From a virus: a DNA stretch of 20,632 nt. The DNA lies in IMG/VR virus record IMGVR_UViG_3300027852_000196, positions 1 to 20,632 of that record. One strand, 5' to 3'. The notes below the pieces were generated by a model. That model saw only the letters and a list, made by a program, of their open reading frames with translations, was not told where the DNA came from and did not search any database. The translations under genes were made by a program, and so were the position numbers. Shown here piece after piece: positions 5,504-20,632 of the stretch. Position 1 is the first letter of the stretch. Every line of letters starts with the position of its first letter.

Positions 5504-6022
5504 TCAATTAAAAGATTTTATATCATCCAAAACGCAATGAGGTCTCTTATCAGCTTCTATTAGAGCATCTTTAACTCTACAAGCTCCTTCAAAAGCTTTA
5601 TAACTGCCGTGATATTTTTGTTTACCTCCATAACTTGTATGCTGAACATCCCACATTCCTTTGGATTTATTAAAAGTAACACCTGATTTTCCGGATGTGT
5701 TATCACTTTTTTCCTGAGAATTACAGTGGTGTCCTATTTCCATTAAGTTATCAATTCGATTATCATCCCGAACATGATTGATATGATGGATTTCATTTTC
5801 TGGAAAATATCCTTGAGTATAAAACCATGCAAGTCTATGTGTAAGGTAAGATTTACCGTTAGCTCTGATTTGTCGATAACCAGACACCTTATTCAAACTC
5901 CCAGCAAGCGCACCAGTTTTTACATTTTTTGCTACATCCTTTAACCAATAAAAGTTACCAGTATCGGGATCGTACCTCAGAATTTCTTTTAATTCTTCCT
6001 GTGTTAATCGTGTCAGGCTCAT
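5504..6022 (-). CDS. HNH homing-type endonuclease with AP2-like C-terminus
   Basis: A 172-aa free-standing endonuclease of the phage HNH family. The N-terminal module is LTQEELKEILRYDPDTGNF, then the HNH core at about 67-105: HRLAWFYTQGYFPENEIHHI with N-H following, and the terminal H-x-CNSQEK. After it comes an AP2-like DNA-binding segment (SGKSGVTFNKSKGMWDV, then GGKQKYHGSYKAFEGA). Such genes nick or cut intronless targets and spread into neighbours; sitting directly beside nrdJ is a common arrangement. It starts 4 bp inside the upstream M15-like gene (ATGA overlap). The nrdJ promoter overlaps its downstream side. Short N-terminal modules resembling this one recur at 16291-17837. Confidence 0.9.
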   Translation of the reverse strand: MSLTRLTQEELKEILRYDPDTGNFYWLKDVAKNVKTGALAGSLNKVSGYRQIRANGKSYLTHRLAWFYTQGYFPENEIHHINHVRDDNRIDNLMEIGHHCNSQEKSDNTSGKSGVTFNKSKGMWDVQHTSYGGKQKYHGSYKAFEGACRVKDALIEADKRPHCVLDDIKSFN

Positions 6023-7398: not shown

Positions 7399-7629
7399 TC
7401 AAAAAACCTGCTGACTTAACATAACTTGAGTAGACCATTTCTCAACCCTTCGGTAGTGAGTATTGTAATGGAACACTTCTCCATTATTTATAGCATAGAC
7501 CAACCAAAACGATTTTCTATAATAGATATTATCTAATTTATTTCTAACACAGTAATTTGTTAACTTCTCCATCTCAAGCTTTCTACATACTGGAATATCT
7601 TTTAAAGAATCTGTTGTTACGGATTCCAT
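7399..7629 (-). pseudogene. Frameshifted tandem paralog of the 7004-7318 gene
   Basis: The ATG at 7629 follows AAGGAGATATA, and the frame gives 76 aa ending ...QQVF-stop. The stop comes straight after a run of six T (7406-7401 on the minus strand). If one T is skipped, the frame continues FDYDYAEITMYNNGGAGLSL (plus ten residues) to a TAG at 7313-7311 that overlaps the ATG of the next gene. That continuation matches the next gene's FDYDYVEIMVHNNGEAELLL. So either this copy is broken by a one-base insertion, or the T-run is a frameshift site, or it is a sequencing error. The intact product would be about 105 aa, like its neighbour. Confidence 0.6.
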
Positions 7630-7665
7630 TATATCTCCTTATATAAAATTTGGACGCAACTCGGT

Positions 7666-8223
7666 CATATAGACTATACGTGGTACCCCTACAGGGCAGC
7701 CACTACAGACTTGGATATATTTAAACATTAAGTAAATACACTTAATAACTTATAGGTTATCACTCCTACACTTTACACTCAGCAATATTGTTCAACCATG
7801 TCTTTATCGATGACCTTAATTAATTTCGGGAAGGTAAAGAACCGAAGGTAGCTGAGGCCATCTTCACTCAACACTTGAATACCACGATATAACCACTATT
7901 TATCCAGGGAGTGAAGCTGAATTCCACTCAACTGACATCCGTCTATTAAAGATGGACATGGTGTATGATTTGTTCTATATAAGCTTTACTATTCCAAACG
8001 CACAGCCTTTCGGTGTGTCCTTCTTTACCCTGTCTGTTATGAAAAGGATGACGCAGAGTATATTAAAATCCTATATCGCTTTTTTATTCGAGAGAACTCA
8101 GGGAAAAGTAAGCGCTGTAAAAACCTTAAAAAAAGAAGTATTCCTTCCCTATACACTTGTCCAAGCTGAGACCTTTTTTTAACACACTTATCTCCGCAAT
8201 CGTATAGTATACATACTTAAGAT
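7666..8223 (-). ncRNA. Candidate large structured non-coding RNA (ROOL/GOLLD-like)
   Basis: A stretch of about 590 nt between 8230 and 7640 holds no minus-strand gene, unlike the rest of this arm. Read on the minus strand it folds. The ends pair: 8208-8201 (ACTATACG) with 7680-7673 (CGTATAGT), extended across one mismatch by six more pairs (8215-8210 with 7671-7666). Inside are a perfect 10-bp helix (8182-8173 with 8135-8126), an 8-bp helix (7962-7955 ACCATGTC with 7802-7795), an 8-bp helix (7916-7909 CTTCACTC with 7869-7862), a GAAA-tetraloop hairpin (8017-8001), a hairpin at 7702-7681, a 7-bp hairpin (7746-7740 with 7733-7727) and several 5-6 bp helices. Size, phage setting and lack of coding match the ROOL class (about 550-600 nt) described from phages and prophages. 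Class membership is inference; a novel class is equally possible. Confidence 0.6.
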
Positions 8224-8229
8224 GAATAA

Positions 8230-8235
8230 ATTATA
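8230..8235 (-). promoter_or_regulatory. TATAAT -10 box for the structured RNA
   Basis: A perfect TATAAT on the minus strand overlaps the stop codon of the upstream gene and predicts a start near 8223, just outside the terminal helix that begins at 8215. No convincing TTGACA lies 16-18 bp upstream, so a phage-specific or activated promoter, or chance in AT-rich DNA, remains possible. Confidence 0.4.
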
Positions 8236-8662
8236 TACCGGCAATCTTTCTTTTCCTATTTTCCCTCCTTAATCTTCTCCTCCTTTTTTTATGTTTAGTA
8301 AAATCTTCCTGTGTCATTGGATAAGGAACAACTCGTTTCCATCTATTATCCCTCACTCTAGTATCTTCATCGAGTAAGGCTACTAAATCATCTTCAGCAC
8401 ATGGTGGATGTGTCTTAAGGTGAGCATCTCTTGCGTTGAAAATATCGCTTGTAGTTATCTCTCTACGGGTTATACCTTTTGTAGAGTAAAACCTTTTTCT
8501 CCTGTGAAGCACCCTATCATAAAGAAGCTCTGTAGCTGACTCACCTGTTTCGGTCATCTCAATCCACATCATATTTGTTATTTCATCGAAGAAGGTTCTA
8601 TCAGACTTGGGGCTTACTTTTGATTGTTTCAGGAATGCCATGATCTCATTGTATCTTTCCAC
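8231..8662 (-). CDS. Hypothetical basic protein, 143 aa
   Basis: Not recognised. The start is GTG (8662-8660) behind GGAGGT, sharing one base with the stop of the phosphoesterase gene (TAGTG), so the two are translationally coupled. The first ~60 residues are helical (FFDEITNMMWIEMTETGESA). The C-terminus is extremely basic (HKKRRRRLRRENRKRK), fit for binding nucleic acid. It is the last gene before the candidate structured RNA, so an RNA-binding partner role is worth testing but is only inferred from position and charge. Confidence 0.75.
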   Translation of the reverse strand: MERYNEIMAFLKQSKVSPKSDRTFFDEITNMMWIEMTETGESATELLYDRVLHRRKRFYSTKGITRREITTSDIFNARDAHLKTHPPCAEDDLVALLDEDTRVRDNRWKRVVPYPMTQEDFTKHKKRRRRLRRENRKRKIAGI

Positions 8663-9459
8663 TAAACCTCCATGACTTTAATCTTAAACCTACCAGATGA
8701 TTGTGGAGTTATTGTAATCTCAAAGCCACCTAAAGTAGTGGGTGGAAAATTTGCTAGCTCTGAATAACTAGTCACGCCTTCTTGCATTGTCTTAAGAAAT
8801 GTTCCACACTCTATAATATATCTTTCCTTTGCTATGAAGTTGCGCTTCCCAGAAATACTAAATTGCGGATAAGCTCTAAAGACCTTTCCGTGTGAATGAC
8901 CAAAAAGAAATATGTCCGCATCGTAAGACTTGAGGTCTTTCTCATATCTAGTTAAACTTGCACCACCAGTTCTACCTCCACCTGCTCCGTGGTGTGCTCG
9001 TATACGAATAGTTCTACCAGCTGCACCACCCTTACTCAAGGCTAACTTATAATAACAAGAATAGCCAGCGTAAAGTATGTTCAGAGCCTTACAAATGCGC
9101 CTGATTGGATCAGTACCTGAGTGTTTTAGTATAGTTGCTTCGTGATTACCGGTTCCAAAACCTATAATCTTGTCTTTAATAGGGCTTAAGAGGTCACAAC
9201 CCATTTCAATTTGTTCATCTATAATAGCTGAAGACATTGTTTTGTCAATGCTCTTACTGTATCTTGGATCCTTAACTGTTACTGCATCCAAGAAATCACC
9301 ACCACCTATATAAAACAGGTTGTCGTCACGACAAGAAATAAAGGTCTTGAGTGCGTGTTCATCACATAAGGCGTTACCTATATGACAATCGTACAAAGGA
9401 CGCAGCCTGATAGTCTTAAATTTGCTGTAGTCTATTCTCTTGTAGATAACCTCCATCAT
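8662..9459 (-). CDS. Calcineurin-like metallophosphoesterase
   Basis: The 265 aa carry the metal ligands of the family in order: D24-x-H26 (YDCHIGN), GGD at about 54-56 (YIGGGDFLDA), GNHE at about 106-109, HHG at about 155, and GHSHG at about 187. This binuclear-metal fold hydrolyses phosphoesters; phage members act on nucleotides, nucleic acid ends or cyclic phosphates, and the substrate cannot be read here. A glycine-rich loop (HHGAGGGRTGGASL) follows the His ligand. The start is the ATG pair at 9459 behind AAGGAGG. It overlaps the upstream small gene by 44 bp and the downstream gene by 1 bp. Position after the nucleotide genes suggests nucleic acid metabolism. Confidence 0.88.
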   Translation of the reverse strand: MMEVIYKRIDYSKFKTIRLRPLYDCHIGNALCDEHALKTFISCRDDNLFYIGGGDFLDAVTVKDPRYSKSIDKTMSSAIIDEQIEMGCDLLSPIKDKIIGFGTGNHEATILKHSGTDPIRRICKALNILYAGYSCYYKLALSKGGAAGRTIRIRAHHGAGGGRTGGASLTRYEKDLKSYDADIFLFGHSHGKVFRAYPQFSISGKRNFIAKERYIIECGTFLKTMQEGVTSYSELANFPPTTLGGFEITITPQSSGRFKIKVMEV

Positions 9460-20451: not shown

Positions 20452-20483
20452 ATAGAGCCACGAGGTTGGACGTTCTCCACCTA

Positions 20484-20497
20484 ACCTAGGCCTAGGT
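20484..20497. repeat. 14-bp perfect palindrome ACCTAGGCCTAGGT
   Basis: A perfect self-complementary site in the control region, made of two CCTAGG units. Nearby, TCTAGATA is directly repeated 10 bp apart (20529 and 20539). Confidence 0.5.
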
Positions 20498-20580
20498 ATG
20501 GGCTAATATCAGGATAGGTTGGGATAAATCTAGATATTTCTAGATAGTTTTATTAATATCTTTATATAGATTGATATATA

Positions 20581-20632
20581 GTTAGACACACCTAACCAAG
20601 TTAGACATACCTAGCCAAGTTAGCCCCACCTA
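20581..20632. repeat. 19-bp tandem repeats running off the right edge
   Basis: GTTAGACACACCTAACCAA, then GTTAGACATACCTAGCCAA, then GTTAGCCCCACCTA at the end of the window. The first two units differ at two positions. They look like origin iterons or binding sites; the full array size is unknown because the window ends. Confidence 0.65.

Follow-up and report, generated by a model that had tools for sequence, protein, structure and literature searches.

To our knowledge, phages have only a few known classes of large structured RNA, whose functions are open. One of them, ROOL, is reported to form an RNA-only multimeric cage. ROOL RNA is about 570 nt long and, like GOLLD, has no known function; both often lie near tRNA islands (PMC12286853). 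Here we analyse a phage locus predicted to encode a folded RNA of 400-600 bases, with no tRNA gene found by ARAGORN in the window or in the relatives' loci. The window is the whole stretch of DNA that was analysed (20,632 nt, IMG/VR record IMGVR_UViG_3300027852_000196), and coordinates refer to it unless a contig is named.

The locus and its relatives

Positions 7630-8230 (601 nt) form the sole ORF-free gap of more than 180 nt on the window's minus strand, counting ORFs of at least 45 aa; the rest of that strand is densely filled with genes, much as the preliminary description had reported. The gap sits inside an operon-like series of minus-strand replication genes, on a phage contig whose other genes include a terminase, a DnaB helicase, a RusA-like resolvase and a ribonucleotide reductase with a TSCPD domain. 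A promoter scan of the region stayed at chance level, and no minus-strand terminator was detected there. The gap is flanked by the following genes:

8662-9459: metallophosphatase-like gene, preceding the 143-aa ORF
8231-8662, minus strand: upstream flanking ORF of 143 aa, with no Pfam or PHROG match
7399-7629, minus strand: downstream ORF of 76 aa, present in the window and L010 and absent from L009 and L001, where another gene takes the position behind the RNA

Only the N terminus of the upstream ORF is conserved; its C terminus differs in each relative and adjoins the RNA's 5′ segment, which is itself weakly conserved.

We traced relatives through the adjacent genes and obtained three contigs with the same gene order, L001, L009 and L010, each with an ORF-free stretch at the syntenic place (721, 676 and 682 nt, respectively). 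Identity to the window across the RNA region (alignment A4) is 87% for L010, 59% for L009 and 49% for L001; L002, from another sample, is identical to L001 across this region. The comparison set consists of four members representing three divergent lineages. No convincing conserved reading frame emerged across the relatives, a point on which the non-coding reading had been exposed: the longest sense stop-to-stop frames are 59 aa (window), 70 aa (L009) and at most 45 aa (L001 and L010), none is convincingly continued in L001, and the window's 76-aa antisense ORF is not intact in relatives. Members differ by the gain or loss of one complete hairpin (about 35 nt), which would shift any reading frame.

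Two conserved-block patterns searched against IMG/VR returned, beyond the known members, coding or chance matches only; one such pattern found no relative in one genome each of 84,980 species, and a BLAST search of 50,697 phage records with the region gave no match. Scans for metallophosphatase and DnaB led to more distant phages, in whose gaps no relative of the RNA lay, and the contig of a further DnaB relative, L058, stops before the locus. The RNA's known range, as far as searched, is so far one narrow phage clade.

Upstream of the entire minus-strand gene block, about 800 nt (19825-20632, minus strand) hold no convincing ORF, are conserved in L056 (87%), L055 (83%) and L060 (76%), and contain CTCTTATATAATGGTATA twice (20240-20223 and 20406-20389), TGTCTCA repeats and short inverted repeats; they likely represent early promoters or a replication origin. 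Genes of one HNH endonuclease family (window 5504-6022; L010 5513-5992 and 8677-9171; L001 1547-2038 and 5824-6270) occupy differing sites although the genomes are syntenic apart from them, a pattern to be expected if these are free-standing homing endonucleases. In IMGVR_UViG_3300027834_000002 (L059 and L060), the two ends of a 44,145-base contig each carry part of DnaB, and the genome is thus circular or circularly permuted, at about 44 kb.

Architecture and comparative tests of the fold

The proposed fold combines a long-range helix, P1, with helices P2-P10 and three covarying pseudoknots (PK1-PK3). Most of these elements are kept via compensatory changes, and hairpins are gained or lost as complete units around the conserved core. 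On the opposite strand, the many G-U pairs would turn into A-C mismatches, which identifies the structured strand as the coding strand. From 5′ to 3′ on the minus strand, the features are:

8127-8230, minus strand: 5′ segment upstream of P1, weakly conserved (alignment A4), with motif CUUGGACAA (8165-8157) common to L001
7674-8126, minus strand: structured RNA, a P1-closed core (8126-7754) plus 3′ hairpins P9 and P10 down to 7674, supported by synteny in four contigs and compensatory changes
8117-8126, minus strand: P1 5′ arm AGGUUUUUAC, pairing with 7763-7754, conserved in all members
8077-8114, minus strand: P2 hairpin CGCUU/AAGCG with inner GAG/CUC; GCCUU/AAGGU in L001
8072/8073, minus strand: P3 site, a hairpin UAUAAAAGU/ACUUUUAUA in relatives (UAUAAAAGC/GCUUUUAUG in L001), absent from the window
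8045-8072, minus strand: P4 hairpin AGGAU/AUCCU
8026-8060, minus strand: PK1, P4 loop UACUCUG (8060-8054) with CAGGGUA (8032-8026); UGCCUG/CAGGUA in L009, AUGCCUA/UAGGCAU in L001
8001-8017, minus strand: P5 hairpin CACACC-GAAA-GGCUGUG
7955-7962, minus strand: P6 5′ arm ACCAUGUC, pairing with 7802-7795 over 8 bp, fully changed in L009 and L001
7936-7954, minus strand: P6a hairpin CAUC/GAUG, abutting the P6 5′ arm in all members; CGUC/GACG in L009, CGCC/GGCG in L001
7909-7929, minus strand: P7 hairpin GAGUGGA/UUCACUC with loop AUUYAGC, 5 of 7 pairs doubly changed
7825-7846, minus strand: P8 hairpin UUCGG/CCGAA, with a compensatory U-A to C-G change in L010
7813-7835, minus strand: PK2, P8 loop ACCUU (7835-7831) with AAGGU (7817-7813); UACGC/GCGUA in L009, ACCU/AGGU in L001
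7795-7802, minus strand: P6 3′ arm GACAUGGU
7778-7783, minus strand: PK3 3′ arm GCUGAG, pairing with P7 loop UUCAGC (7921-7916); C-G becomes U-A in L009 and L001
7754-7763, minus strand: P1 3′ arm GUGAUAACCU, with a possible alternative local hairpin UGUAGG/CCUAUA
7727-7746, minus strand: P9 hairpin AUUAAGU/ACUUAAU; GUCAAGU/ACUUGGU in L009, CUCAGU/ACUGAG in L001
7674-7710, minus strand: P10 hairpin, arms 7710-7700/7683-7674, in all four members, its terminal part differing by tens of bases
7630-7673, minus strand: linker GACCGAGUUGCGUCCAAAUUUUAUAUAAGGAGAUAUA, conserved, reaching the Shine-Dalgarno of the next gene

P1 joins the two most conserved blocks of the region and itself shows little variation among members. 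Across members, P6 takes the forms CAUGUC/GACAUG, UAUCAC/GUGAUA and ACACUC/GAGUGU, and P7 also occurs as CGGAAAG/CUUUUCG and AAGGGGA/UUUCCUU, its loop AUUYAGC being linked through PK3 to a GCURAG lying outside P6. All four members have, by inspection, a GAAA-capped hairpin between PK1 and P6, the sequence of which is not alignable, and L010 has, in place of P9, a hairpin GAGUUA/UAACUC shifted by a few bases. The L001 RNA contains a second P1-like block, ACAGGTTTTCACAGCAACCTAATCTTTACCTGAACGG (L001 3638-3672), which may reflect duplication of a domain or offer the P1 3′ arm another partner.

The preliminary description had closed the whole stretch by pairing 8215-8201 with 7680-7666. Within the window these bases can indeed pair, but conservation is lacking for the 5′ arm (A4) and the 3′ arm belongs to P10; we rejected this terminal helix, the supported long-range closing helix being AGGUUUUUAC (8126-8117) with GUGAUAACCU (7763-7754). 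Other elements named there held: the GAAA-capped hairpin lies at 8017-8001, and both the 8-bp helix ACCAUGUC/GACAUGGU (7962-7955/7802-7795) and the hairpin UAUUAAGUG/UACUUAAUG (about 7747-7726) are present, with helices at the same places in relatives. Some long perfect helices seen in the window alone overlap supported pseudoknots. An 11-bp helix AGGGUAAAGAA/UUCUUUACCUU (8031-8021/7841-7831, one G-U) excludes PK1 and PK2; it is present in the window and L010, weaker in L009 (9 bp) and absent from L001.

The folding energy of the window is unremarkable (z -0.91), with 16 of 100 shuffled sequences folding as well, so the question had to be settled by comparison. Among the relatives, z was -3.28 for L001, -2.15 for L010 and -1.54 for L009; for an A/U-rich RNA with pseudoknots, single-sequence folding energy has little power as a test. 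MAFFT and RNAalifold, run on the full alignment, recovered P1, P8 and P10; slippage in the sequence alignment caused P2 to be mispaired and P6 and the pseudoknots to be overlooked. In the structure drawn by hand, 282 of 295 cells are paired and 30 of 76 pairs are doubly changed. This count was visual and made with every sequence in sight, on helices initially picked by eye; we therefore added tests with less freedom of choice.

Stems at corresponding alignment positions in the window, L009 and L001 were searched for automatically, giving 164 conserved triples, compared with 72.9 ± 15.9 (maximum 113) in 60 column-block shuffles. The eight best stems summed to 113.2 versus 104.8 ± 3.4 (shuffle maximum 113.4), indicating that the number of conserved stems stands out, more than any single stem. 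Stems in their expected windows, set against dinucleotide shuffles, gave Fisher P values of 0.0016 for the window, 0.0020 for L009 and 0.0015 for L001. A covariance model of the 174-nt P6 domain, built from the window and L010 only, scored 42.5 bits on L001 with structure and 23.3 bits by sequence alone; on a 711-nt stretch of L009, searched with filters off, its top match was correctly placed at 12.3 bits, as opposed to 2.7 bits at a wrong place by sequence alone. L001 and L009 were held out from this model as sequences, the choice of structure not being blind to them. In alignment A12, which was fitted with the model and is biased towards its own structure, pairing stands at 97% and 13 of 24 pairs are doubly changed; none of 500 shuffles scored as high, and slid structures gave 0-4.

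The closest pair of members offers a simpler comparison. Within the 174-nt central domain, the window and L010 differ at two positions, which are both partners of one P8 pair (U-A to C-G); the chance that two random changes hit partners among 24 pairs is 24/15051, or ~0.0016. Across the whole P1 core, the nine substitutions comprise six unpaired positions, the two of the P8 pair and one U-A to U-G in P1. Judged on these sequence comparisons, a conserved pseudoknotted fold on the coding strand is very probably established, and the large structured non-coding RNA proposed in the preliminary description is well supported by comparative evidence. Covariation in homologs, which is clearly positive, was weighted above both the lack of a model match and the window's folding energy, two outcomes that the preliminary description had listed as refuting its proposal.

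Mode of action

The best explanation overall, which we consider probable, is a maintained pseudoknotted non-coding RNA that would be released from the operon transcript and act in trans. The RNA would be co-transcribed with the replication genes from the minus strand and then be cut from, or accumulate out of, the operon transcript. Rather than being an mRNA leader, it may work as a folded RNA in its own right, whether as a scaffold or as an RNA-only particle after the pattern of ROOL and GOLLD. For the trans-acting mechanism taken by itself, our analysis puts the chances at about even. Whether the RNA forms its own RNA-only assembly, as a further phage cage type, or switches between PK1/PK2 and the long-range 11-bp helix is a more speculative matter, and we think either unlikely.

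The main rival of the trans-acting reading is a cis-acting leader, in which the structure would be the 5′ untranslated region of the downstream genes and would govern their translation or mRNA stability, perhaps through alternation of PK1/PK2 with the 11-bp helix. The structure stops just short of the Shine-Dalgarno in all four members, some 40 nt separating it from the end of P10 in each, and the linker is almost identical in the window, L010 and L009; mutually exclusive pairings exist in the window, and a weak match to potC, a family typed as cis-regulatory, falls on P8/PK2. However, the gene behind the RNA is the 76-aa ORF in the window and L010 and another in L009 and L001, Shine-Dalgarno accessibility is patternless (0.78, 0.55, 0.33 and 0.43), the 11-bp helix is weaker in L009 and absent from L001, and the RNA is large for such a role. 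We hold a leader to be rather unlikely. A spacer without functional RNA, in which A/U-rich DNA forms helices by chance, would agree with the window's folding energy, but the compensatory changes, the model's scores on held-out members, the gain or loss of hairpins as units and the automatic stem search against shuffles all speak against it and make it very unlikely.

Comparison with known RNA families

No Rfam family, including OLE, HEARO, group I and II introns, RNase P and tmRNA, reached its cut-off, and permissive Rfam scans of the window, L001, L009 and L010 gave weak matches only. The ROOL model (RF03087; gathering score 99.1 bits) had no match at E ≤ 10 in the records of the window, L001, L009 and L010, and as a positive control it scored 130.4 bits on the L. 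salivarius megaplasmid pMP118. The GOLLD model (RF02032; gathering score 150 bits) likewise had no match at E ≤ 10 in these four records, the above-cut-off positive control being for ROOL only. Where the RNA had been introduced as 'ROOL/GOLLD-like or new', the models thus do not bear out membership of either family, and a new class is the option left standing. A divergent ROOL or GOLLD member below the detection of the Rfam models would share the size, phage setting, pseudoknots and variable hairpins seen here, but given the empty searches alongside a working ROOL control, and no tRNA genes nearby, we judge it highly improbable. Least credible is a decayed or atypical ribozyme, for instance a group I intron, for which the size is within range and homing-type HNH genes are scattered across these genomes, but which had no Rfam intron match at E ≤ 5 and would lie between genes, with no split gene found.

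With compensatory changes over hundreds of nucleotides and no reading frame, the RNA is 'ornate' in the general sense of the term. The open-access papers searched describe no other phage RNA of this type. The RNA apparently represents a class of large ornate phage RNA that is new, has a narrow distribution and belongs to no tested family. An independent class with its own fold, in phages of ~44 kb and with no tRNA genes nearby, would suggest repeated evolution of such RNAs, and would help to separate general traits (size, pseudoknots, variable hairpins and a fixed core) from the peculiarities of ROOL and GOLLD. The RNA can be synthesized, making its folding and oligomer formation directly testable.

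Among the described systems, potC (RF01751) resembles one part of the RNA: the hairpin with loop UUCUUUACCUU is similar to the potC hairpin, and the match in the window covers all 70 model positions (7804-7867, on P8/PK2) at 26.1 bits, with a cut-off of 44 bits. This match was not seen in L001, L009 or L010 and spans one part of a much larger RNA. OLE (RF01071) is also a large structured RNA, of about 600 nt (PMC12054373), but has no Rfam match to the RNA described here at E ≤ 5. GOLLD is likewise a large phage RNA with conserved and variable parts (PMC12286853); it is often longer than 800 nt, whereas the present RNA is shorter than most GOLLD RNAs and has no tRNA genes nearby. Unlike ROOL, the RNA does not lie near tRNA genes and, as far as searched, belongs to a narrow clade; with ROOL it shares a phage or mobile-element setting, a complex fold and several pseudoknots (PMC12286853).
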